Shown piece by piece: positions 5,301 through 55,909 of a stretch of DNA of 64,000 nt. The position numbers and the translations under genes were made by a program. Positions within the stretch are counted from its first letter, which is position 1. Every line of letters begins with the position of its first letter. The notes beneath the pieces were generated by a model that had not been told where the DNA came from, ran no database searches, and saw only the letters and a list, made by a program, of their open reading frames with translations. The DNA comes from Brachypterus glaber. Its lineage: Eukaryota > Arthropoda > Insecta > Coleoptera > Kateretidae. The stretch lies in NCBI GenBank assembly GCA_958510825.1, contig OY294046.1:45241794-45305793 (forward strand), read 5' to 3'.

Positions 5301-5366
5301 AGACATTTTTGTTTTTTGTGAACATTTGGTTTAATATCTGTAAACAACACGTCACGCATCAAAACA

Positions 5367-6149
5367 ATGAGTGGGGATCAAACTTGTCGTGTCTGCAGCG
5401 AAGCGATATTGGATCCGCAGTACCAAGTGAAGTGTGCGAACTGCCGTCGCCACACTCATGGATTGACGTGCGCCTCGCTAAACAAGACGATAATTAAAGC
5501 CTTGGTAGAAAATACATCTCTTAGCTGGACATGTCCTAGTTGCATTAACTATTCGGTAGTTGCAATTATGGATAAGTTAAATTCAATAACAACTACTTTA
5601 GAAACACACACTTTAAATATTAATAATATCAATAATGTATTAAATACACCTACAAGTAGGCCAAAAGCCAGCGCTACAGCCCCTCAACCGTTAGCTGAGC
5701 CGATGAGCGCTAATAGAAATCCTACATTACTTCAGCCTAGTAACACTGTACAGGGGAGAAGACGTCTCTCTGTTCCTAATAATTCGGGTGCTAATTCAAA
5801 CATAGGAAGTCATAGAAAAAGCAATTTAATTATAGGCAACAGAAGTGATAAATCGAATTTAATCTCCTCTGCAGAACGTCGCCAATGGCTCTATCTTGGC
5901 AGATTAAAACCTGGAACAACCAACGAGAACATTATATCCTATTTTAATGATGTACTTGATATTACTGATGTCAAATGCGAAACGCTTCTGTCCAATGATG
6001 ACATTTGTTCATTTAAGGTTGGTGTAAAGGAGTCTCTAATAGCAGGCCTTCTGGACCCGAGTTTGTGGGAGGAAGGCATTGCCGTGAAAGAGTTTATACC
6101 TCGTAGTAGGTCTTTTTGGCAAACGAGGACTCATCCCGGAGGAAATTAA
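5367..6149 (+). CDS. LINE ORF1 protein: PHD-type zinc finger plus C-terminal RNA-binding-like domain
   Basis: The 260-codon frame is uninterrupted. Residues about 7-60 have the spacing Cys-Cys-Cys-Cys-His-Cys-Cys-Cys (TCRVC, CANC, HTHGLTC, TCPSC), the C4HC3 pattern of a PHD finger. Such fingers are known in the first ORF of several insect jockey/CR1-group LINEs. Residues about 80-165 are rich in Asn, Ser, Thr and Pro and are probably disordered. From about residue 173 the segment QWLYLGRLKPGTTNENI resembles the first strand and helix of an RRM-like fold, as expected for a nucleic-acid chaperone that coats the element RNA. The ATG at 5367 follows CAAAACA, a good eukaryotic context. The frame ends 27 bases upstream of the first in-frame ATG that leads directly into the endonuclease of ORF2. 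Confidence 0.8.
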   Translation: MSGDQTCRVCSEAILDPQYQVKCANCRRHTHGLTCASLNKTIIKALVENTSLSWTCPSCINYSVVAIMDKLNSITTTLETHTLNINNINNVLNTPTSRPKASATAPQPLAEPMSANRNPTLLQPSNTVQGRRRLSVPNNSGANSNIGSHRKSNLIIGNRSDKSNLISSAERRQWLYLGRLKPGTTNENIISYFNDVLDITDVKCETLLSNDDICSFKVGVKESLIAGLLDPSLWEEGIAVKEFIPRSRSFWQTRTHPGGN

Positions 6150-8972
6150 ATAGTACGTCCATCTGTTCTAATAATATGCTTAAACTCAATGTATATTATC
6201 AAAATGTTCGCGGCCTTAATACCAAAGTAGATCAATTTTACTCTGCCGTTAGTGACTGCGAATACGATGTTATTGCCGTTACAGAATCTGGACTAAATAG
6301 CAATGTTCACAGTTCTGAACTTTTTCCTGAAACTTATACTGTATTTAGATGCGACCGTAATTATGCTGAAGTTGATGCCGATAAGGGAGGAGGAGCATGT
6401 TTAGCTGTAAATTCCAACTTTTTGGGTAACGTTATAATATCTGAACTGAACTTTTCGAGCATTACAAATATTATTAAATCTTTGGAAATTGTAGGTTGTA
6501 AAATGTGTTTTAATAATTTTAATTTAATAATTATTGTTTTGTACATACCGCCTTCTATTCCTGTTGCAGAATTTGAATTGTTTTTTGAACTACTTAGTCT
6601 AATTGAATTTCTTTATGATAAAAATGTTCTTTTTATTGGCGATTTTAACATTAGTCGTTACGTTAATCATGACTTAAATGATAGTAAATACTGTGCCTTT
6701 AACAACTTTATAAATTCTTTCGAACTTTCACAGTTTAACAGCATATTAAATTCAAAAGATCGTCTTCTGGACCTTACAGTGTCCAATTTGTCATGCGTAG
6801 TATCTAGAAGTGACCATCCTTTTGTCAATATTGACTTGTACCATCCACCTTTGGATATTTCTGTAAGCATGCATGTTTTAAAAAATAAAAAATTTAAATC
6901 TACAAATACAAGTAAAAATTATAATTTTCGCAAATGTGATTTTCGAAACTTATATGACAGTTTATCCAAAGTCGACTGGTCTGTTCTTCAAGATTTTAAT
7001 GAAATTAATCTTGCTTGTGATAAATTTTATAATATTTTAGATTCTAATTTTGATAAATTTGTTCCTGTCTATAAAAATAAATCACGGTCATTCCCTGTTT
7101 GGTACAGCAAGGAGCTGATAACCTTGCTAAAAAATAAAAATAAAGTTCATTCTAAGTTTAAAAAATATAAAAATATTTCTGATTTAAATACTTTTAAAGA
7201 ATTACGAAGCGAATCTATTTAAGGGATATTCAGAGTAATATCACATCTGATCCAAAATCTTTTTGGACTTATGTTGGTAATAAAAGGCGCTCAAGTAGAA
7301 TCCCTGGATCTGTTACACTTAATGATACCGAAATATCCGATCCTCAAGATATAGTCAATAGTTTTGCCGACTACTTTTCGAGTGTTTACACTGTCCCTAC
7401 ACCCGTTAATTTACCTGATAGTACAAATTGCTTTGATAATGTGGTTATTAATGAAATTACTGATAGCGATATTCTAGCTGCTATTAAAAAAATTAAAAAT
7501 TCTTCAACGGCTGGAATTGATAAAATTCCTAGTTTTCTAATAAAAGACTGTAAATATGTTTTTGTCGAACCTTTAAAATATATATTTAACCTAAGCTTAA
7601 AAACCAGAACATTTCCTACACTTTGGAAGACGTCCAGAGTCTGCCCGGTACATAAGAGTGGAGATAGGGCTAAAATTGAAAATTATAGGCCTATCTCCAT
7701 TATTTGTAACTTCGCAAAACTTTTCGAATCAATTTTATATATTCATATTTACAATCAAATTAAACTTAAACTTTCTCCGCACCAGCACGGATTTATAGAA
7801 AAACGAAGTACTGTGTCTAACTTGGTTGTTTTCAAACAATTTATATCACAGGCAATAAATGACAAAGAACAGACAGACGTCATAAGTACTGACTTTCAAA
7901 AGGCGTTTGATCAAATAGATCCATATATAATACTTGTAAAGCTTGAAGAATTTGGATTTCATAGAGCTCTAATTGCTCTCTTTTTTAGTTATCTTTTTGG
8001 TAGAAAACAAGTAGTTTTTTATAATGGATACTATTCATATTTCTTTTTTTCTACTTCTGGTGTTCCCCAGGGTTCTAATCTGGGACCTTTAATTTTCCTA
8101 ATTTTCATTAATAATCTGCCTTTATGCATAGACTGTGATCGGTTATTGTTTGCGGCGACTTCAAATTTTATTTAATAATTAAGTCTATTAACGATTGTAT
8201 TTTGCTGCAAAATCAAATTAACCTTTTATGGGACTGGTGCATTCGTAATAAATTAAATCTTAACATTAAAAAATGTAAATACATGTCATATTCAACTAAA
8301 CATAATATAATAGACTACCAGTATCATATAAACGGTACTCCGCTTGAGAGATGCTATGAGTTGAAAGATCTAGGGGTTGTATTTGATACGACTTTATCTT
8401 TTTCATGTCACATATCCCAAGTCTGTTCTTCTGCTTCTAAGATGTTGGGATTTATAATTCGAAATTCAAAATCTTTTAATAATGTATTATGCCTTAAGTC
8501 ATTATATTATGCATATGTGAGATCCAGACTAGAGTATGCCTCTCTTGTCTGGTATCCCACATATGTAGTTCATACTGATGCCTTGGAAGCAGTGAATAGA
8601 AGATTTGCAAAATTTCTTTATTTTAAACGTGAAGGAGTCTATCCTGCTCAAGGATACGACAATATTGAACTGTTAAACCGCTTTAATATGCTGTCACTTA
8701 AGACTAGACGAATAAATTTTTCCCTATGTTTTCTATATAAACTGCTTCACAATGGAATTGATTGCATGGACTTACTCAGGCAAATCAATTTCAGAGTGCC
8801 GCGTTTGGGTTCGAGACGTGAGGATACTTTTATTTGTAATTTTAGCAGGACTAACGTTATGGTTAGATCGCCAATAAATATAATATGTAATAACTTTAAT
8901 TCGTTAAACAGATCCATTGATATTAACGCGTGTTCTCTAAACTCACTTTTATACACTAACAACCTACAATAA
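6116..8972 (+). pseudogene. LINE ORF2 (endonuclease and reverse transcriptase), two frameshifts
   Basis: Three successive frames join into one polyprotein. Segment one (6116-7222; the useful start may be the ATG at 6176) is an APE-type endonuclease with YYQNVRGL, AVTESGL, GDFN and SDHP blocks. Segment two (7223-8154) holds the reverse transcriptase with STAGIDKIP, NYRPISI, QHGF, STDFQKAFDQ and SGVPQGSNLGPL blocks. Segment three (8155-8972) is the thumb/connection part, with LNIKKCKYM, KDLGVVFD and RSRLEYASLVW. The first shift lies near 7220. The second lies at about 8155, exactly in the catalytic FADD box: the bases read Phe-Ala and then lose one nucleotide, so both catalytic Asp codons are out of frame. 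Downstream blocks remain well preserved, so the lesion is young. No RNase H is present. Confidence 0.85.
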
Positions 8973-9079
8973 TAGGTTAAAATTGTGTATTTATGTATCC
9001 ATATATATTATTTATTTTGTATATTTTGTATATATGTATTTTTGCCCTAGAATTGGTGCAAACTGTTGGGCAAATAAAG

Positions 9080-9109
<30 letters not shown>
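9080..9109 (+). repeat. (ATT)n LINE tail
   Basis: About ten uninterrupted ATT units follow the AATAAAG that ends the LINE. They serve as both its 3' terminus and a microsatellite. Confidence 0.9.
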
Positions 9110-17603: not shown

Positions 17604-18496
17604 GGGAGCCGGTCTTTACCTCGAAAGCAAATACCTCGAAAAAATACCTCGAAAAAATTTACCACGAAAGGACATTACCTCGAAAAGACCTTACCTCGAA
17701 AAAATTTACCTCGAAGGGACATTACCTCGAAAAGTCGTTACCTAAAAGTACATTACCTCGAAAGATTTTACCTCTAACGGATTTTACCTCGAAAAGGGAT
17801 TTTATTAATTTTTTAACTGTTTCTTTGCGATTATTGTGTTGTAGTTTTTTTGCTCATATTTTATCATTTATTGATTAAATTTTAATTTACGGGCATTTAT
17901 TAGCTTTTAGTTTTAGTAAATAATTCAAAATGAATCGATTAACCTATTTCGAGAGTTTGCGAAAGATAAATTAGCTGTGTATAAAAACTTTGTGTATTAT
18001 AAAGATCGTGTGTACAAAGACAGGTTTTTTTGGAAAGCAAAATATGGTGAAATTGCATGCAAAGGAATAACAATTATTGTAAATTATTTTTTTTATAAAA
18101 AAATGTTGCTGTAGATTTATTGACAGCTTTTTGATTATTTGTGATTTCAAATACTTTATTTTTGTATAATATATCAATATTATAGCTTTAAATAACGTTA
18201 AAAAATAATTATTGCTGTCAAATTTGGCTTCTTTTTCTAAAAAAAATTTTGTTTTAGTTTTTTTATAATTTTTAAAAAATTATGTATTTTAGAGGTAATT
18301 TTTTATGCGAAGTAATGCAGTTCGAGGTATTTTCTTTCGAGGTAATGTCCTTTCGAGGTAATTTTCGTGTGAGGTAATGGGCTTTCGAGGTAAAATTTTT
18401 CGAGGTAACGGTGTTCGAGGTAATTTTATTCGAGGTAAAAATTTTCGAGGTAATTGCTTGCGAGGTAAATTTTTTCGAGGTAAAGACCCCCTAACC
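17604..18496. mobile_element. Foldback element with tandem-repeat arms and 8 bp target duplication
   Basis: The left arm (17604-17800) is about eleven units of roughly 16 bases with core TTACCTCGAAAA. The right arm (18290-18496) is the inverted equivalent, with TTTTCGAGGTAA units. The outer tips are GGG..., then GGTCTTTACCTCGAAA on both sides. CACTTACT is repeated exactly outside each end (17596-17603, 18497-18504). The roughly 490 bp loop is AT-rich and non-coding. Long arms built of short tandem repeats are known for Foldback and MULE/Rehavkus-type elements, with 7-9 bp targets. The superfamily is inferred. Confidence 0.75.
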
Positions 18497-20089: not shown

Positions 20090-20995
20090 ATGGCTTAAAT
20101 ATAATTTAGCTATAGCATGACATCATATATGCTTAAAGTTATATTTTTGAATCTAAATATCTCGGCTTCCAGCACATCAAATTGTGAGTCACCGTTTAAA
20201 AGGCACCTCACAAAATTTAAAAGTCCCCATTGTTAACAACATGTTGTTTGTTTAATATTATCTGAAAAATATCGGGTAACTTAAAAGTATTGAGCGTACA
20301 TTCAGCTGAGGGTCGTTAAAAGCTTTACACGCCCTAGGGCGTATCCAGCTGAAAACAATATCCTAGGATATTGTATCGGAGGAGGGGCAGTGACCAAAAA
20401 TGTTATGTATTATTGCGGGCCGACTAAAGTAATAGCGGCCAAATTCTTTTTACAAAAGGAGACAAAATATGTTTAAATTATGCATAATTAGGTCCTGCTC
20501 TCTAGGATAGGCGCCTGCTAGAAAACGTCTGAGAAATTATTTATTAGGATATAGATGCAGCTTTTTAATTATACAGTATCTAAACCATGTTTGGCACAAG
20601 GAGTAGCAATATTATTTTTATTTTTATTTTTTGTTTAGAGAAAGATATCAACTTCATATGAAAGTAAAATAGCTATTTTCCTAACAAGTGCGGAAAGAGC
20701 CTCTTTTCCGCACTGGATTGCATTTGCCTGAAGGACTCGTAGAGGGGTTCAGGCAAGCAATTGAAACTATTAACAGTTAAGAAATTTGAACATTTTTATA
20801 ATATTATGAATAAATATAACAAGAATAACACTACGCAATTAATAAATTAGGTAATATTTATTTATTTCCACACGCCTATGCGTGAAGAAAGAGACATCTT
20901 TCCGCACGCTCCTAGGAAAAAGATATTTCGGAGATATTAAGCCGTATAGCACTTTTGGGTTCGTCGATGGTACGAAACTTCATGTAGAAAAAAAA
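20090..20995. other. Gene-free stretch with small palindromes
   Basis: CAATATCCTAGGATATTG (about 20358) is a perfect 18 bp palindrome. GTGCGGAAA...TTTCCGCAC near 20690-20716 is a small hairpin, with a third related TTTCCGCAC site near 20908. No gene. Confidence 0.4.
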
Positions 20996-21059
20996 TTTGT
21001 TTATTGATAATAACAGATAACAATTTATTATTCCATCAATCTATTTTCTAATCATCGTA

Positions 21060-21126
21060 CAGAGTGATATTGGTAGACTGACAGTTTCGGGCTGCTGGCC
21101 CTCTTCAGTACCAAGAGTCAACTCTG
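21060..21126 (-). ncRNA. Type I hammerhead ribozyme, copy 1
   Basis: Read on the minus strand, all core positions are canonical. Stem I has an outer part CAGAGT/ACTCTG, an internal loop and an inner part TTGGTA/TACCAA. Then come CTGAAGA (21102-21108), stem II GGGC/GCCC with loop CAGCA, GAA, and stem III ACT/AGT with a 3-base loop. Cleavage would follow C17, the complement of 21076, between 21076 and 21075. A very short stem III with a long two-part stem I is the known form of hammerheads in Penelope-like elements and retrozymes. Activity is inferred from sequence only. Confidence 0.9.
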
Positions 21127-21413
21127 CACGCTGATTAAGAAAACGTTTTTAGACTTTACTCGCGAAAGGAATATAGCCATTAGATTGATGTAGACTTGTG
21201 CGCCATCTATTTCTAGATGTAGACAACTACTCATACCTCTCCTTATCTGGAGACTTTGAATGGTAGCAAGTTGAAGACTTGTGTGTCTCAAGCACATAGT
21301 ACCACTAACGGGTGGTTAGACGTAAAATTAGTAAGGACAGAAATTTTTAATTTTAAACAAAATTATAAAAATATTAATTTATTATTCCATCAATCTATTT
21401 TCTAATCATCGTA

Positions 21414-21480
21414 CAGAGTGATATTGGTAGACTGACAGTTTCGGGCTGCTGGCCCTCTTCAGTACCAAGAGTCAACTCTG
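21414..21480 (-). ncRNA. Type I hammerhead ribozyme, copy 2
   Basis: It is identical in sequence to copy 1 and exactly 354 bases away, with CTGAAGA at 21456-21462 and the predicted cleavage site after the complement of 21430. A minus-strand transcript crossing both copies would release a 354-base RNA with ends suitable for circularisation; this last step is inferred from known retrozymes. Confidence 0.9.
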
Positions 21481-21886
21481 CACGCTGATTAAGAAAACGT
21501 TTTTAGACTTTACTCGCAAAAGGAATATAGCCATTAGATTGATGTAGACTTGTGCGCCATCTATTTCTAGATGTAGACAACTACTCATACCTCTCCTTAT
21601 CTGGAGACTTTGAATGGAATAATAAATTAATATTTTATTAATTTTGTTTAAAATTAAAAATTTCTGTCCTTAACAGATAACAACTTAAAATTGTTGTAAA
21701 TTATTAGTATTCTTTTAAGTTCACTATTTTTATTATTTAAGTCATTGTGGGATTCAATAGATTTCACTATTTCTTTGCTATACTAGACTCGCCTTTTTTC
21801 CAGGTGTGTAGCTCATCTCTCAAACTAGAGTCGTCTACACAAATAAATATTTTAGATTAGATTTTAAGCTTTCACGGCCATTAAGA

Positions 21887-22089
21887 TATAAAGAACTTTC
21901 ACTTTCGGGTTTAGACCGTGTTAATGGATTTTCACTTTCCGACGTTTCGTCTCTTACTACTAGAGACATCTTCAGGGATTAATCTGTTTCAGATTAATCC
22001 CTGAAGATGTCTCTAGTAGTAAGAGACGAAACGTCGGAAAGTGAAAATCCATTAACACGGTCTAAACCCGAAAGTGAAAGTTCTTTATA
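21887..22089. repeat. Perfect long palindrome with 100 bp arms
   Basis: Arms 21887-21986 and 21990-22089 are essentially exact complements around TTT. Each arm contains CCTGAAGATGTCTCTAGTAG (or its complement) followed by AAGAGACGAAACGTCGG. A diverged, partly deleted copy lies at 9589-9747. The order CTGAAGA, hairpin, GAAAC resembles a hammerhead core but has an extra T before the stem and no good stem I. Confidence 0.8.
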
Positions 22090-32340: not shown

Positions 32341-34784
32341 GTTTTATTTTAATTTGGAAAATAAATACCCAAATGCCCAGTAAAAAAGCTTTCCCATTTG
32401 TCACCTCCGCGCGTAAAATGGATTTTTTATTACCAGCTTCACTTTAGCAACCTTAAAAATATACAAAATTTTCACGAAAACTACTCCCCGCCTCTTAGGG
32501 GGTGGATTTAGAATATTTTTATTATCAGATTCACTTTTAGCAACCTCAAAAACCCCAATAAACAAATTTTCACGAAAACTACCCCCCGCCCCTCAGGGAG
32601 TGGAGTTAGATTTTTTTATTATCAGATTCTCCTTCAGAAACCTTAAATACCCCATATATCAATTTTCACAAAAACTACCCCCGCCCCTCAGGGGGTGAAT
32701 TTAGATTTTTTTTATTATCAGTATCACTTTCAGCAACCTCAAAAACCCCAATATACCAGTTTTCACGAAAACTACCCCCCACCCCACAGGGGGTAAAATT
32801 AGAACAAAATTATTATCAGATTCATATTCGTCAACCCTAAAAACCCCTATATACCAATTTTGACGAAAATATTTAAAATATTTAAAAATATTTACCCCCT
32901 CGCCCCTGCGGGGGTGAAGTTAGAAAATTATTATTATTAGATTCAACTTCAGCAACCTTAAACACCCCTATATAGCAATTTTCAAATTTTTGTAAAAAAA
33001 TGTATTTTTTCCCATTTGTACCCCTTGCCGCACCCCAATGTTCACCAAAAACAATCCCGAGCGAGAACTTTTGGTAAAATACCTGTAACCCAAATTTTAA
33101 GTCTCTAGCTTAAATCGTTCTTAGGTTATCGTGCTTACAAGATTTTTCCGGACAGAACGATCGACCGACCGACCGATCTACCTACCGACAATTTTTTTTT
33201 TTGCTTTATATCGACATAAAACGTCATAAAACGCAAAAATAGGCAAACAAAAATTTTGAAAATTTTTGCACGAATACAATGCTTTCCGAAATTTTGAAAA
33301 TTTTCAAAATGGGAAAGAAAAAATATTTATTTTCTCATACTTATGTTAGGAAAATTTCTAATATTAAACGACAAATTTTTAGAAAGTCGGTTCCCTGACA
33401 CGATCTTAATTCAAAAATAAAACTACTTTCAATACATGTGGATCTATATATTAAATAAAATAAACTAAATTAGTAAATAACGGTTAAATTTAAAATTCTT
33501 TTAGTTCTACCTTGGATTAAATTCAAACTGAAATCTTAGACATTCCAAAAATATAATTTTGGTAAATAAATAGCTGTGTGTTTATTTCAGGATATAGACC
33601 GTGTCAAAAAAGTTCTAAAGTATTACTTACCTATTTTAAAAAGTTTCGTATTTTATTTCTAAAGCACCTTTAGGAAAAACATCCATTAGTAAGGGTGAAA
33701 AGTCAGAAAGTATTAGTTCTGTAAGATGCTCTAAACCCGAATAAATAGTATATTGTTTTACTAAGAGGAAAGGTGAAGCTTTTTTTTACTGGTCTGTAGA
33801 ATTTATGGACGACGCGAAGCGGAGTCCGGAAACTAAAGAAGAGTAAAGCACTTCTCCTCTGAGTGAAACTTACTATTTTTTTCTTTAATCATCCTATACA
33901 TATGTTTTAAATATTAATTTTTGAATTTAATTTATTCAGTAATAAAGTATGTTTTTTTTTATTAAAATAGGCCAATAAAACCCTTTCGAAATAAACTTAA
34001 ACCTTCCTTTAAGGAAATAATAAATAAATAAAAAATAGCTTATTTTAAATTTTTTTCGTAGGCTAAATCGAACACTTTTCGCGATTTCGATGGTAACTTG
34101 TCTAATGTAACATTTGCAATTTCGGAGAGATTTTTAGGTGTATAAACCATATATTCTTCTTCAATCATTTTTAATCAATTTCACCCGAGGTTTTTGCACA
34201 GAATCTCGAGTCAACCACCTGTTTACATAATAAACAAATAAGTTTGAAGTATGGTTGTCATCATATGTTTTGCTAACTAACTTTTTTTACGGCGTACAAC
34301 AATGAACTCATTTTTTTACTGTAAAAAAATAGATAACTAGTGTGTTCAGTTATAAAATATAAACATTTTAGTTCGCTTGAAGAAAAAGATACTTTTTATT
34401 CGATTGTATCTAAAAGTGCCACGTTTTGTAAAATAAACCTGTACGAAAAGTTTAATTTTTCGATCTAGGTCGCAAAAGTAAAATAGTCGACGCTGATTGG
34501 TTGATTGATATTATAACTGTTGACATTTGAATTCTAACCACTAATTTGTTATCAAAAATACAAATGTATTTATTAATATATTACAATAGAATCAAAAATA
34601 GTGTATGATACACGTACGAAAACTGTTTTTAGGGCAAATTTGGCATCCGAGCTCGAAGAGCGAGGTTGGCAATCTCAGTAATCGCTCTAAAAACAGTATT
34701 TTTCGTCCCTGTATAATAAACTACTATTTTTAATAACATATGTATTGCATTTTCCAATTGCATACTAAAAAATAATTTGAGTTC

Positions 34785-35301: not shown

Positions 35302-35768
35302 GAGGTTAACCTCAATTGCTGAAATTAAATCTAATAATAAAATTTTTCTAACTCCACCCCCTCGGGGGTGAGGGGATAAATATATTTTTGGTTTTTGGGG
35401 TCCACGAATCTGAATATGATAATAATTTTTTTCTATATTTACCCCCTAAGGGGCGAGGGGTAGTTCTCGTAAAAATTGGTATATTGGGGTTTTTGAGGTT
35501 GCTGAAAGTGAATTTATTAATAAATAAAACTCCACCCCCTGAGGGGCGGGGGGTAGTTTTCGTGAAAATTTGTATATTCTGGTTTTTAAGGTTGCTGAAA
35601 GTGAATTTGATAATAAAAAAACTCTAACTTCACCGCCTGAGGAGCGGGGGGTAGTTTTTGGGAAACTTGGTATATTGGGGGTTTTTAAATTTGCTGAAAG
35701 TGAATCTGCTAATAAAAATTCCATTTCACGAGCGGAGGTAAAAAATGGGAAAGCTCTTTTACTGGGCA

Positions 35769-36855: not shown

Positions 36856-37197
36856 TAATTTGGTCCCTAAAATTCATAAAATTATTCATAAATCATAAAA
36901 AATCGCTGGAAATTGTCTGTAATTTTTGTTTTTGAAAAATTTAAAGGTCTTAAAATAGTATTTTTTTCCTTTTGAGCACACATATTTCTACCATAAATTT
37001 TAGTAAAACGGTAAACAAACATTTTAAGTGAATCACATCGGACTGAATTTAATTTTATCTAATGCATTCTAATATTTATTTATAATATTAAAACTATTTA
37101 ATTAAAACAAAACGAGCTAAGGGCCAAATAAGAGCTCCTAAATAAGTCACTTTGAGAAGCCCTTGTTTGACTCTTAGCTCGTTTGTGTTTTAATTAA

Positions 37198-37213
37198 ATT
37201 ATTTTAATATTAT
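37198..37213. repeat. Target-site duplication, left
   Basis: ATTATTTTAATATTAT is repeated exactly at 41204-41219, immediately outside the Penelope-like element. The first six bases also match the inverted junction copy, so the true length is 10-16 bp. Confidence 0.8.
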
Positions 37214-37270
37214 TCAAAAAATAAAACATTCGTTTTGGGTTAATTTTGGCAAATTTTAATCGTCACTTTT

Positions 37271-37310
37271 CAGTACTTAACAGTTTCGGTCTATATTAGA
37301 CCTTTATCAA
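37271..37310 (-). ncRNA. Degenerate hammerhead-like motif in the pseudo-LTR
   Basis: On the minus strand TTGATAA is followed by a hairpin GGTCT-AATAT-AGACC, GAAAC, and a short ACT/AGT stem with a GTTA loop. The layout is that of a hammerhead, but the C3 and G8 positions are changed, one extra A precedes stem II and stem I is poor. It is probably vestigial. A second copy lies at 40315-40354. Confidence 0.45.
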
Positions 37311-37730
37311 AAGCTAAAAATTACAATGGGATAAGATATAACGCATAATTATAAAAATATTAAAAGTTTTTTAAAATGAACCTAACCTAAAAAACTTACC
37401 ATCTAAATTATGAGCATTATTTTTACAAATTCCGAACATACCATGGAACTAATTACTGGCTACTTATACAAACATTACATTACACAGTTACATAATTTGT
37501 TTGAACTGAATAGATCAAACTAATTAACATTTTCTTAAAATTACAAAGTGCAACCGTACAGGTCATGGCTGCCAAGAGATGTTCAAGGGTTGTTCCAATT
37601 AAAAATAAAGCCAACAATTTTACTAACAGAACAATACTGAAATGGTACAATTCCACAATATACTATGCATCATCATTATTAATAATAATAATAATAATAA
37701 TAATACTAATAAAAATAATACGGTACACCA

Positions 37731-40190
37731 TCATTGTTGTAAAGCATGTATGTTTCTGATTAAGTAGACATAAATGTTGCTGAGGTCATCAGTATCGGAC
37801 TTATAGTTTATAGAATCAGAGTGACTGATGATCTGCACCATTTCCATCAATTCCCTTCTCTTTTTATGTTGTATTCTATTTAAAATTTCGATATTATCTA
37901 TGTTAAAATCAAAATGGTGACCAGTCTCAAGGTGGTGATATGTCAAGGCTGTTTTATTGTCTTTGATGTGTTTACAAGTTGATTTATGGGTGCTAATACG
38001 AGCACCTAACGAGGTCATTGATTGTCCAATATAACAACCTTCACAATGAAAACATTTAATTTTATAAATGGTATCAGTCATGGCTCCTTTCTTTTCAATG
38101 TCTTTTAACTTACTAAAAAATATATTGCCAACAGTGTTTCTACTGTATGTTGCAAATGCAGCGTTTTGAGTTTTTAAGATATTAATGAGTTTATTTGTTA
38201 ATTTTGGTATTATAGCTAAACTACAATATTTCTTAGTTATGTTGGTAGGTATATTGGTACCTTGATCGGTTTTATTTTTAAATTTTTCTATTACCGAATT
38301 AACAAATTTTATTGGATAACTATTTTCTATGAACTTCTGTTTAATGTTATTTATATTTTTATGGTGAAAGGAATCATGACTAAGTTTTTTAATTCTAATT
38401 AGATCCTGTTTAATAAGGTTTATTTTTTGATGTGTAGGGTGCAGGGAGGCAAAATTAATTGTTCTGTTAGTATTTGTAGGCTTTTTATAGATATCTGTTA
38501 TTAACGTACCATTGTCATTCCTTATGACAAGTACATCAAGGAATGGCAATTTTTTGTCAATTTCATTTTCTAAGGTAAACGTTAACTTTTCATTGATTGA
38601 GTTAAAAGCAGCTAAAACATTATTGATTTCATCTTCAGGTAATATTGCAAAAATGTCATCGACATAAACCCAAAAGTATGGAATCAATTCTGGAAACATA
38701 CTTATCACAGTCTTAATTATATAGTTCATCACAAGATTTGCAAAAATGGGTGATGAAGGACACCCCATGGGGCTTCCATCAACCAATTTATAAAAAATGC
38801 CTAAACTCACGCAATAACCACTTTCACATATAAATTCAATCAGTGAAATAAACGTCTCCTTATCTATGTTACAGAATTGTTCAATTTTCGACCAAAAATC
38901 TAGTATACAATTAATTACTAGACCCTGGGGCAAATTTGTGAACAGGGACACCACATCGAACGATACCAATCTATGGCTAGGTAATATCACAATATCTTTA
39001 ATAATGTTTACAAATTCGTATGAGTTTTTAACAGTATAGTTAAATTCAGGTATTAAATTATTTAGTATTTTCGTTACAAATTTAGATAAATTATAGCTCG
39101 GGGAGTTTATGGAAGCTACTATGGGTCGTAAGGGAACATCCTCCTTGTGGACTTTGGGTAGTCCATAAATCTTAGGAGGTAAGCAATTATTATTGATTAA
39201 TATTTTAGCATATTGTTTGTCAATATGTTCTTTTTTAAGCAAAGTGTCAATTAATTCATTAGCCATAGATTGATATTGTCTTGTGGGGTCACTATTTAAT
39301 TTTTCAAAACAAGTACCATCATTTAATAGTGCATTCAATTTACGAAAATATTCTTCTCTTGACAGTATGACCGTTATGTTACCTTTATCAGCCTTGACTA
39401 CTAAAATATTTTTATGCATACTAAGGAATTTTTTAGTTATTTTTATCTCATACTGAAGTTTTTTATTCAAAAGGTCAGGATGGTGTTTCACATTATTAAC
39501 ATAATTTGTAATCGTGTTAGTACATTGTGCTCGTACCATATTCTTGTTGTCATAGTTTAGTCGTGTGATAGACATTTCTGTGTCACATAGCAGGTCTTTT
39601 AATGGAAGAGCAGGTGTGCTGTATGGTAAGACGAACTTGGGGCCTAATGACAGAATGTCTTGAACTTCAGTTGGTAATTCGACTTCAGTTGTGTTCACTA
39701 TCCATTCTTTTGAAGTTTGTGGTGTAACACTACATTGCTGTGTTCTTAGGGTATTTAGTTTTTTGTTGTGTGTTATCTTTAATTGTTTTCTAAAAGTTCT
39801 GCATATTCTTTGATGAAAATTAATACAGTTTTGTGTAATTATGGCTGGTAATATTTTATTTATTTTAAGAATAATGGCCCTTATTCCACTTTTTACTTGA
39901 TTTATTTGCCAGAAAGTGGTTTTAATTTCTATGGTTAAACATTTTTTCTGGAATGATGTTACTGCCTTGTCTATATTTGACTTATAAGGGCTATCCTCAA
40001 TAAGCATACTGTATACAGAATTAAAATTTCTTTTAATATGGTTAGGTATAATTGTTTCTCGTTTGCATGTGAGTAAAAATTTTTTTCTAGCAGTCAAGCT
40101 AATCAATTTCTTTCTTAATTTAATCCATTCTTTCAAACATACACAAGCTTCAGTTCCATGGTATGTTCTAATATCTTGGTAGAATCCCAT
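37731..40190 (-). CDS. Penelope-like reverse transcriptase with GIY-YIG endonuclease
   Basis: The intact 819-codon frame has the length and order typical of animal Penelope proteins. The N-terminal third is Lys-rich, with the conserved VVKADKGN block near residue 265. The reverse transcriptase follows: YGLPKVHK (about 345), LVSFDVVSLFTNLP (about 410), DGSPMGCPSSPIFANL (about 474), and YVDD with Tyr509 and the catalytic Asp511-Asp512. LPFLDVLV and the LHPTHQK region link to the C-terminal endonuclease: IYKIKC (Ile708-Tyr709), a CysXXCys pair, CYIGQS (Tyr720-Gly722), and Arg731 in GARISTHK. The HHLETGHHFDF block and a final Glu-rich helix follow. The enzyme nicks target DNA and primes reverse transcription there. 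No intron is visible. The ATG at 40190 lies 68 bp inside the right pseudo-LTR boundary. Every catalytic residue I can name is present. Confidence 0.93.
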   Translation of the reverse strand: MGFYQDIRTYHGTEACVCLKEWIKLRKKLISLTARKKFLLTCKRETIIPNHIKRNFNSVYSMLIEDSPYKSNIDKAVTSFQKKCLTIEIKTTFWQINQVKSGIRAIILKINKILPAIITQNCINFHQRICRTFRKQLKITHNKKLNTLRTQQCSVTPQTSKEWIVNTTEVELPTEVQDILSLGPKFVLPYSTPALPLKDLLCDTEMSITRLNYDNKNMVRAQCTNTITNYVNNVKHHPDLLNKKLQYEIKITKKFLSMHKNILVVKADKGNITVILSREEYFRKLNALLNDGTCFEKLNSDPTRQYQSMANELIDTLLKKEHIDKQYAKILINNNCLPPKIYGLPKVHKEDVPLRPIVASINSPSYNLSKFVTKILNNLIPEFNYTVKNSYEFVNIIKDIVILPSHRLVSFDVVSLFTNLPQGLVINCILDFWSKIEQFCNIDKETFISLIEFICESGYCVSLGIFYKLVDGSPMGCPSSPIFANLVMNYIIKTVISMFPELIPYFWVYVDDIFAILPEDEINNVLAAFNSINEKLTFTLENEIDKKLPFLDVLVIRNDNGTLITDIYKKPTNTNRTINFASLHPTHQKINLIKQDLIRIKKLSHDSFHHKNINNIKQKFIENSYPIKFVNSVIEKFKNKTDQGTNIPTNITKKYCSLAIIPKLTNKLINILKTQNAAFATYSRNTVGNIFFSKLKDIEKKGAMTDTIYKIKCFHCEGCYIGQSMTSLGARISTHKSTCKHIKDNKTALTYHHLETGHHFDFNIDNIEILNRIQHKKRRELMEMVQIISHSDSINYKSDTDDLSNIYVYLIRNIHALQQ

Positions 40191-40314
40191 GATGTAAATA
40201 GAGTTGTACCCAATTTAAATTCAATAATACTAACTATACGTTGCCAATGCAATTTATTCAAAAAATAAAACATTCGTTTTGGGTTAATTTTGGCAAATTT
40301 TAATCGTCACTTTT

Positions 40315-40354
40315 CAGTACTTAACAGTTTCGGTCTATATTAGACCTTTATCAA
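40315..40354 (-). ncRNA. Degenerate hammerhead-like motif, second pseudo-LTR
   Basis: Identical to 37271-37310 and exactly one unit (3044 bp) away, so it has the same core substitutions. It would mark the 5' side of a unit-length RNA if any residual cleavage existed. Confidence 0.45.
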
Positions 40355-40774
40355 AAGCTAAAAATTACAATGGGATAAGATATAACGCATAATTATAAAA
40401 ATATTAAAAGTTTTTTAAAATGAACCTAACCTAAAAAACTTACCATCTAAATTATGAGCATTATTTTTACAAATTCCGAACATACCATGGAACTAATTAC
40501 TGGCTACTTATACAAACATTACATTACACAGTTACATAATTTGTTTGAACTGAATAGATCAAACTAATTAACATTTTCTTAAAATTACAAAGTGCAACCG
40601 TACAGGTCATGGCTGCCAAGAGATGTTCAAGGGTTGTTCCAATTAAAAATAAAGCCAACAATTTTACTAACAGAACAATACTGAAATGGTACAATTCCAC
40701 AATATACTATGCATCATCATTATTAATAATAATAATAATAATAATAATACTAATAAAAATAATACGGTACACCA

Positions 40775-41125
40775 TCATTGTTGTAAAGCATGTATGTTTC
40801 TGATTAAGTAGACATAAATGTTGCTGAGGTCATCAGTATCGGACTTATAGTTTATAGAATCAGAGTGACTGATGATCTGCACCATTTCCATCAATTCCCT
40901 TCTCTTTTTATGTTGTATTCTATTTAAAATTTCGATATTATCTATGTTAAAATCAAAATGGTGACCAGTCTCAAGGTGGTGATATGTCAAGGCTGTTTTA
41001 TTGTCTTTGATGTGTTTACAAGTTGATTTATGGGTGCTAATACGAGCACCTAACGAGGTCATTGATTGTCCAATATAACAACCTTCACAATGAAAACATT
41101 TAATTTTATAAATGGTATCAGTCAT
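40775..41125 (-). pseudogene. Duplicated C-terminal GIY-YIG fragment of the Penelope gene
   Basis: The 116 codons are identical to residues 704-819 of the full protein and lie within the 5'-truncated second unit. They are a consequence of the partial head-to-tail dimer and not a separate gene. The frame opens with Met-Thr-Asp only because truncation happens to fall beside an internal Met. Confidence 0.9.
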
Positions 41126-41255
41126 CAGTCATCAGTCAAAAAAATTAACCCAAAACGAATGTTTTATTTTTTGAATAAATTGCATTGGCAACGTATAGTT
41201 AGTATTATTTTAATATTATGAATAAATATTAGAATGTATTAAATAAATAGTTATT

Positions 41256-41855: not shown

Positions 41856-42133
41856 AGTGCGATCTGATACATTTATAAAATGTTTGGTTACTGTTTGACT
41901 TTAATGTTGATATGGTAGAAGTTCGCAAATTTTGGTGTTAGGGGCAACTTTGGCGGATCTTCGGCACGGATTATATCTTTTGCAGAAATTTGGCACATAG
42001 TTTTTTATGCTCAAAAGGAAAAAAATAAGATTTCAAGCCCTTTAAATTTTTCACTTACAAAAATTACAGACAATTTTCAACGTTTTTTTACGATTGATGG
42101 GTATTTTACGAATTTTAGGGGCCCAATTGGGAC

Positions 42134-54832: not shown

Positions 54833-55404
54833 GGCAGACTAACATCTCTACTCTAAATTTCTCTACTCCCTAACATCCCTACTCCATAACATCCCTACTC
54901 CATAACATCCCTACTCCACAACAACTCTACTCCGTAATATCTCTACTCCATAACATCTCTACTCCGTAACAACTCTACTCCACACTATATGCACTTTATT
55001 AGCCACTTAATATAATAATACATGAGCAGTTCAAAGAACAAAGAATCTTCTTCTTCTAGATTATTTTATTTTTTTCCTAGAAAACGTTTATCTTTAAATG
55101 TAAATCTAGAACAATCATAAATGAATTATTCTAAAAGCAACAATGACCGCGTACTCTTAACATGCACTAATATGTAAGTAATTAATAAACTGAATTCATT
55201 TTTGACAGTGACTTAGCATGACAAATATTCTTTTGAGTTAAGAAAAGTGGCTAATCGAGTGTCTATAGTGTGAAGTAGAGTTGTTACGGAGTAGAGATGT
55301 TATGGAGTAGAGATGTTACGGAGTAGAGTTGTTGTGGAGTAGGGATGTTATGGAGTAGGGATGTTAGAGAGTAGAGAAATTTAGAGTAGAGATGTTAGTC
55401 TGCC
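54833..55404. mobile_element. Foldback element with 16 bp tandem arms and 9 bp target duplication
   Basis: The left arm (54833-54985) is GGCAGACTAACATC followed by about eight copies of a 16-base unit, CTACTCCATAACATCC-like. The right arm (55264-55404) is the inverted equivalent ending GATGTTAGTCTGCC. TTTCTGTCC is repeated exactly on both sides (54824-54832, 55405-55413). The loop (about 280 bp) is non-coding. A 9 bp target with tandem-built arms is the pattern of MULE/Rehavkus-type foldbacks; the superfamily is inferred. It interrupts the outer hairpin at 55414-55741. Confidence 0.8.
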
Positions 55405-55413
55405 TTTCTGTCC

Positions 55414-55741
55414 TTATCTCGTAATTGACAAGAGCTACAAAAAATATTCAAATGACAAACTTGTAGGAAATTTAATTTCCTACAAAAATGGTCCTTAGCA
55501 CTAAATCGCTAACATCAATATTTCTTGAGATATTAAATTCTAAAGTTTTTGTTATTTCAAATTATTATCGAGTATCACGTCAAATTATAAAAAATCGTTA
55601 TTTCATTATACATCACTATCTCAAGAAATATTGATGTTAGCGATTTAGTGCTAAGGACCATTTTTGTAGGAAATTAAATTTCCTACAAGTTTGTCACTTG
55701 AATATTTTTTGTAGCTTTTGTCAATTACGAGATAAGGACAG
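55414..55741. repeat. Hairpin with about 120 bp arms, host of the foldback insertion
   Basis: Arms 55414-55533 and 55608-55730 are nearly exact complements (TTATCTCGTAATTGACAAGA, GGAAATTTAATTTCCTAC, CACTAAATCGCTAACATCAA). The GGACAGAAA beyond the right arm matches the target duplication of the foldback, so the original left arm began just beyond that insertion. Confidence 0.8.
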
Positions 55742-55909
55742 AAAGGACAGATATTAGGTTTAAATATTTAAATAGATGGAGCAGTTTTAATTTTTTGAAC
55801 TAAATTGATAAAAAACTGGTCAAATATTAAGAAAAACTAATAAACTTTATGTAATTTTTACGCAAAACTTTAAATTGCATTAAATTATTCTGATTAGTCT
55901 ATTTCATGG

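Follow-up and report, generated by a model that had tools for sequence, protein, structure and literature searches.

The window analysed here, a 64,000-nucleotide stretch of Brachypterus glaber DNA, holds one copy of a 647-bp element on its minus strand at 21024-21670, exactly between two identical 13-mers (TAACAGATAACAA). Along the minus strand, an inverted arm (21670-21614) is followed by a repeat (21617-21378), a spacer (21377-21264), and a second repeat (21263-21024). The element is thus a partial tandem with pseudo-LTRs of 240 + 114 + 240 bp, in which the repeat spacing, or unit, is 354 bp. Its features are as follows.

21011..21023, no strand: target-site duplication copy 1, TAACAGATAACAA, identical to the 13-mer at 21671-21683
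21024..21263, minus strand: 240-bp repeat at the 3' terminus, pseudo-LTR-like, carrying hammerhead copy 1; 239/240 identical to 21378-21617
21057..21129, minus strand: type I hammerhead 1 with distal stem I helix; core CUGAAGA at 21108-21102, C17 at 21076
21264..21377, minus strand: spacer, 114 bp, within the 354-bp unit; the "tail" is formed by its first 44 nt (21377-21334)
21378..21617, minus strand: 5' repeat (unit truncated), 240 bp, with hammerhead copy 2; one difference in 240
21411..21483, minus strand: type I hammerhead 2; C17 at 21430
21614..21670, plus strand: inverted 5' arm, 57 nt; reverse complement of the repeat/spacer junction 21334-21390
21671..21683, no strand: target-site duplication copy 2, identical to copy 1 at 21011-21023

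The original prediction had placed an element with two tandem hammerheads at 21024..21670, and both its boundaries, which coincide with the inner edges of the identical 13-mers, and the two core-bearing copies, 354 bp apart on the minus strand, were borne out. The flanking duplication had been given as 13 bp; since the 13-mer also shares 2 nt at either end with the element, the true duplication is 9-13 bp. A repeat search returned 247 nt for the 240-bp repeats because the alignment runs into this duplication. The element had also been said to encode no protein, in agreement with a longest stop-free stretch of 65 codons in six frames of 21024-21670 and no open reading frame of at least 110 aa. 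When the sense strand of the 354-nt unit was scanned for the consensus A and B boxes of RNA polymerase III promoters, neither was found, and the element does not have this mark of a SINE.

Several other repeats were observed in the window. Just ahead of the element, 20688-20907 contains hairpin-forming short repeats (GTGCGGAAAGAGCCTCTTTTCCGCAC, with a 77% copy 194 bp further along), and ~200 bp from the element on its other side lies a perfect palindrome (21887-22089) of two 100-nt arms, 100% complementary and 3 nt apart, which is either a foldback element of very recent origin or an artefact of the assembly. Short TTACCTCGAA-type repeat arrays in opposite orientations occur 0.5 kb apart at 17615-17796 and 18288-18484, and two arrays of a 93-98 bp tandem repeat, also in opposite orientation, lie ~2.6 kb apart at 32424-32869 and 35441-35718. 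At 54833-55404, an inverted-repeat element has arms in which a 16-bp unit (TAACATCTCTACTCCA) and its complement are tandemly arrayed; it resembles a DNA transposon with repeats of the subterminal kind, and another inverted pair (55403-55746) follows it directly.

Hammerhead ribozymes and the 354-nt unit

Each hammerhead copy, read on the minus strand, consists of CUGAAGA, a 4-bp stem II with a 5-nt loop, GAAA, a 3-bp stem III with a 3-nt loop, C17, and a 6-bp proximal stem I. Beyond the proximal stem, an internal loop leads into a 9-bp distal helix, which agrees with the two-part stem I originally proposed. A type I descriptor (CUGANGA, stem II, GAA, stem III, H17, stem I) matched just these two copies in the 64 kb and had no match in 60 simulated 128-kb sequences. 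With a compact-loop descriptor, whose limits were chosen after the match had been seen, 2 matches were obtained in 2.5 Gb of simulated second-order Markov sequence with the composition and trinucleotide make-up of the window (~0.0001 per 128 kb, the two copies being counted as one event because they are duplicated). A looser descriptor gave 518 matches in 2.0 Gb (~0.03 per 128 kb), 42 of which had a stem I of at least 6 and a stem II of at least 4. As judged from the letters, the core is that of an intact type I hammerhead, beyond what chance would supply. Three one-mismatch matches of a relaxed scan (31321, plus strand; 32691 and 32596, minus strand) were rejected as ribozymes by eye. The pattern had 0 matches in the viral_contigs and genome_contigs collections, which are not insect genomes, so this says little.

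Both copies had been called fully canonical, which is accurate for the core and slightly strong for the rest, given the short stem III, the Rfam scores, and the predicted fold. An Rfam search, proposed at the outset as a check, found no family at its gathering score anywhere in the window and no hammerhead model at E<=10 in a 901-base stretch; in an 81-base stretch, the top match was the RAGATH-1 hammerhead (RF03152), with the core correctly aligned; its 17.7 bits (E 0.38) fall short of the gathering score of 56.3, so the element is not a member by the Rfam standard. The predicted minimum-energy fold of the 81-mer contains a competing CUGA/UCAG pairing at -30.9 kcal/mol, compared with -21.7 kcal/mol for the ribozyme secondary structure; the nearest-neighbour fold thus favours the competing pairing by ~9 kcal/mol, in energies that leave out tertiary contacts. 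Likewise, in the predicted fold of the whole circle, ACUGA is paired with UCAGU across the hammerhead core. Apart from a central U-U, the stem III strand (ACUGUCAGU) can pair with a second copy of itself, with a duplex energy of -8.3 kcal/mol, and therefore the hammerhead could act as a dimer, as has been reported for amphibian retrozymes (PMC7229834).

The distance from cut to cut (C17 at 21076 to C17 at 21430) is exactly 354 nt, and therefore double cleavage would yield an RNA of exactly 354 nt, the length originally predicted. The unit has a GC content of 36%. As a circle, it has a predicted energy of -92.6 kcal/mol, compared with a mean of -66.5 kcal/mol for 100 shuffles (z -5.5). The circular RNA is thus predicted to be highly self-paired, and high self-pairing has been reported for retrozyme circles (PMC7229834).

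These results bear on the simplest alternative, namely, that the locus is an immobile local tandem duplication or a degraded satellite fragment with a fortuitous hammerhead-like fold. The single copy in 64 kb, the sub-threshold Rfam scores, and a minimum-energy fold other than that of the ribozyme would all be compatible with such an origin. However, it leaves unaccounted for the identical 13-mers exactly at both ends, one of them abutted by the inverted arm, the exact 354-nt cut-to-cut unit, and a ribozyme descriptor expected only ~0.0001 times per window. On the target duplication and the chance estimates, we reject this reading and consider it highly improbable.

Relation to known retrozymes

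Judged by its sequence features, the element fits best among the metazoan non-LTR retrozymes, which were described as a class in 2020 (Cervera & de la Pena 2020, PMC7229834). Like the described members of that class, it has a type I hammerhead with an intact core, a unit and predicted RNA of 354 nt (tandem units of ~150-450 bp and RNAs of ~170-400 nt in the class), a GC content of 36% (below 45-50%), and a target duplication of 9-13 bp (>4 bp), and it is non-autonomous and co-exists with a Penelope-like element. The original prediction had noted a resemblance to retrozymes and Penelope-associated hammerheads, which stands, and had proposed a distinct small mobile family, which is not supported, since the anatomy matches that of the published class (PMC7229834). 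What sets the element apart is an inverted 5' arm with a Penelope "tail", of which we found no mention in the accessible text of PMC7229834.

The element shares with plant LTR retrozymes two hammerheads in direct repeats that bound a releasable non-coding RNA (PMC7229834, PMC7761336). However, the plant elements are described as having type III ribozymes, RNAs of 600-800 nt, PBS/PPT, 4-bp duplications, and GC contents above 55% (PMC7229834, PMC7761336), whereas here the hammerhead is of type I, the unit is 354 nt, the duplication is 9-13 bp, and the GC content is 36%. In schistosomes, W-elements, some with active hammerheads, have been reported with TSDs and internal inverted repeats around predicted miRNA/snoRNA parts (PMC8490949). 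Penelope-like elements (PLEs) have been put forward as a strong mover candidate for metazoan retrozymes because the two co-occur, both have type I hammerheads, and both take a tandem form (Cervera & de la Pena 2020, PMC7229834); this candidacy is repeated in PMC7761336, and a beginner's guide likewise notes that metazoan retrozymes may rely on PLEs (PMC8969392).

Inverted 5' arm and insertion ends

Neither the inverted arm with its tail nor a Penelope-like element of the same architecture in the window had figured in the original prediction. The arm of the retrozyme aligns over 59 nt with 21332-21390 with 2 mismatches, 2 of the 59 nt being overlap with the flank. It comprises the last 13 nt of the repeat and 44 nt of spacer, the tail, which is absent from the 3' end of the element; once the end overlaps are considered, the tail is 42-46 nt long. 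At its junction with the direct part, 4 nt (CCAT) are common to both.

Measured from the ribozyme cut at 21076, the 3' end of the retrozyme (21024) is a further 52 nt on, and therefore copying did not start at a 3' end made by the ribozyme. Its direct part covers 1.7 units (594 nt). Taken together, the position of the 3' end and the 1.7-unit copy rule out as template a single linear monomer, released by self-cleavage and copied from its end.

The Penelope-like element of the window

A Penelope-like element lies ~16 kb from the retrozyme, on the same strand, with the following features.

37198-41219, same strand as the retrozyme: Penelope-like element
37198..37213, no strand: flanking 16-mer copy 1, ATAATATTAAAATAAT, identical to 41204-41219; 4 nt overlap the 3' end of the Penelope-like element
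37210..38081, minus strand: 3' pseudo-LTR, 872 bp, 100% identical to 40254-41125
37731..40214, minus strand: open reading frame, reverse transcriptase (RT) with YVDD and a C-terminal GIY-YIG-like motif; 827 aa between stops, 819 when counted from the first Met
40254..41125, minus strand: 5' pseudo-LTR (upstream unit, truncated), 872 bp
41141..41209, plus strand: inverted 5' arm, reverse complement of 40223-40291, 69 nt, 100%
41204..41219, no strand: flanking 16-mer copy 2; 6 nt overlap the inverted arm

The inverted arm consists of 38 nt of the repeat end and a tail of ~31 nt. Allowing for the 4 and 6 nt by which the flanking 16-mer overlaps the element, the duplication proper spans 6-16 bp and the tail 25-35 nt. 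The element is also enclosed by the two arms of a 149-nt inverted repeat (36860-37008 and 41978-42126, 75%), and therefore may have inserted into an older foldback element.

Against Pfam, the encoded protein matched RVT_1 at 1.5e-5, below the gathering score, and the GIY-YIG model had no match at E<=10 to this reading frame or to the partial C-terminal copy at 40775-41128. Among 6550 candidate proteins, 800 were related to it with E<=0.001, the best at 44% identity over 98%; of these 800, 120 were listed, and a GIY-YIG domain (PF01541) is present in 8 of the 120 (P0006, P0016, P0024, P0027, P0029, P0049, P0054, and P0084). An alignment with seven relatives, including P0006 and P0029, shows no variation in the RT motif VDD or at the C-terminal Y.G, R, and H positions. 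The named relatives of the two RT proteins of the window (120 listed for each) come mostly from insects and a spider, and also from a fish and a coral, at 28-50% identity. No confirmed relative of the Penelope-like protein was found in viral_contigs, which says little, as that collection is not of insect genomes. The protein is a candidate for the kind of enzyme that could mobilise the retrozyme.

The 3' region of the Penelope-like element holds an imperfect hammerhead-like segment. An intact hammerhead was sought in the element and rejected, as the relaxed scan found none and Rfam HH9 reached only 13 bits against 52 (E 1.7).

Shared insertion architecture

The retrozyme and the Penelope-like element have the same layout of partial tandem, inverted 5' arm, tail, and target duplication. 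This common arrangement can be read directly from the DNA, as can the ribozyme sequence and the unit, and on one retrozyme copy the architecture match is strong. Published work on Penelope describes internal initiation at two adjacent sites, with both target strands being extended, as well as a 30-40 bp genomic tail (Frangieh et al. 2024, PMC11167929), and bdelloid Penelope elements have been reported with inverted pLTRs, a 31-bp tail, short TSDs, and microhomology junctions (PMC3846280, 2013). GIY-YIG Penelope-like elements thus have in common with the retrozyme the pseudo-LTR partial tandem, an inverted piece of the 5' pLTR, a short 3' tail, a target duplication, and an AT-rich target (PMC11167929, PMC3846280). 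In the retrozyme, the arm and tail are 13 + 44 nt and in the Penelope-like element of the window 38 + 31 nt; the retrozyme differs in having no RT/endonuclease reading frame and a fuller hammerhead than the minimal Penelope type. By analogy with these systems, the sequence suggests that the retrozyme was inserted by Penelope-type machinery.

At the first presumed start site (site 1, the repeat end), AATAAATT occurs in both elements. An 8-mer was shared by chance in 589 of 27306 composition-matched random pairs (2.2%) and in 1230 of 200000 unmatched pairs (0.6%), and AATAAATT is found 35 times in the window on both strands; as a sequence resemblance, it is weak evidence that would add little. 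At the second start site (site 2, the tail end), no word longer than 4 nt is common to the two elements. Kinship between the two elements at the sequence level was considered and rejected, as the weak matches checked have 0-3 G+C in 20-43 nt. With no real homology to the Penelope-like element of this window, the actual partner of the retrozyme may be another family.

The same comparison bears on whether the locus is instead a "mini-Penelope", that is, a deletion derivative of an autonomous Penelope element and not part of an independent retrozyme lineage. Such a derivative would have the same pLTR/internal/pLTR layout with an inverted arm, and Penelope pLTRs can carry hammerheads (PMC7761336). 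However, any similarity of the retrozyme to the Penelope-like element of the window is confined to AT-rich runs, its hammerhead has a stem III and a distal stem I helix, unlike the minimal Penelope type, and its 354-bp unit is of retrozyme-like size, all of which make this derivation quite unlikely.

Insertion by a LINE, in which a multimeric RNA would be copied by target priming and twin priming would produce the 5' inversion and the duplication, also has to be weighed. LINE twin priming fits 5' inversions with microhomology and duplications of 9-13 bp such as those seen here. Under random priming on a 354-nt repeat, a second priming point at most ~45 nt downstream of site 1 would arise by chance with a frequency of ~45/354 (13%). 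The window also contains a LINE-type RT fragment (7198-8175, RVT_1 4.9e-20). This fragment is one of two scanned reading-frame pieces of a broken non-LTR retrotransposon at 5322-9109, which is followed by an (ATT)10 run and whose named relatives include beetles and a spider. However, the 3' end of the retrozyme has neither poly(A) nor an expanding simple-sequence tail, and it is internal, template-encoded, and removed from the ribozyme cut by the 52 nt noted above. In addition, the arm starts only a short way downstream of the 3' end, at a distance like that in the Penelope-like element (~31 nt) and near the published tail of 30-40 bp. Movement by a LINE therefore seems unlikely.

Bdelloid Penelope pLTRs have been described as moving unrelated DNA (PMC3846280). 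On balance, we lean towards the view that a Penelope-type enzyme inserted this retrozyme in trans, and that the locus keeps the scar without recognisable Penelope sequence. In the passages of the literature searched, no retrozyme was described as having a tail or an inverted arm, although an earlier description may exist; passages of PMC7936874 and PMC6431247 contributed nothing further here.

Proposed mechanism and implications

We consider it probable that the element is a metazoan non-LTR retrozyme whose transcript cuts itself into 354-nt monomers that can form circles, and that it was inserted by a Penelope-type RT/endonuclease. Transcription, cleavage, and circularisation of the retrozyme, as well as a Penelope enzyme as its mover, are what we infer from the features above. 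The retrozyme would be a non-coding RNA parasite, whose transcript would cut itself at the type I hammerheads into 354-nt monomers that could be ligated into circles. A Penelope-type RT/endonuclease would then use a circle or an uncut multimer as the template for insertion at an AT-rich site, as follows: (i) one target strand would prime cDNA at internal site 1 (the repeat end, 21024), with the copy running for 594 nt, or 1.7 units; (ii) the other target strand would prime ~44 nt further downstream, at site 2 (the tail end), and stop after ~57 nt; (iii) the two cDNAs would join head to head over 4 nt of homology; and (iv) repair of the staggered cut would leave the 9-13 bp duplication.

The kind of retrozyme described here was already known, and the link between Penelope and retrozymes had, as far as the accessible literature goes, been argued from co-occurrence and shared features. 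What this locus adds is the Penelope-type scar on a retrozyme together with a neighbour that bears the same scar. If the proposed mechanism is true, the template would be a circle or an uncut multimer and not a linear monomer, and the tail scar would be a general, searchable test that names the mover of animal retrozymes. A retrozyme scar that matches the Penelope scar of a neighbour would thus turn the question of the mover into a test for any retrozyme-bearing genome.
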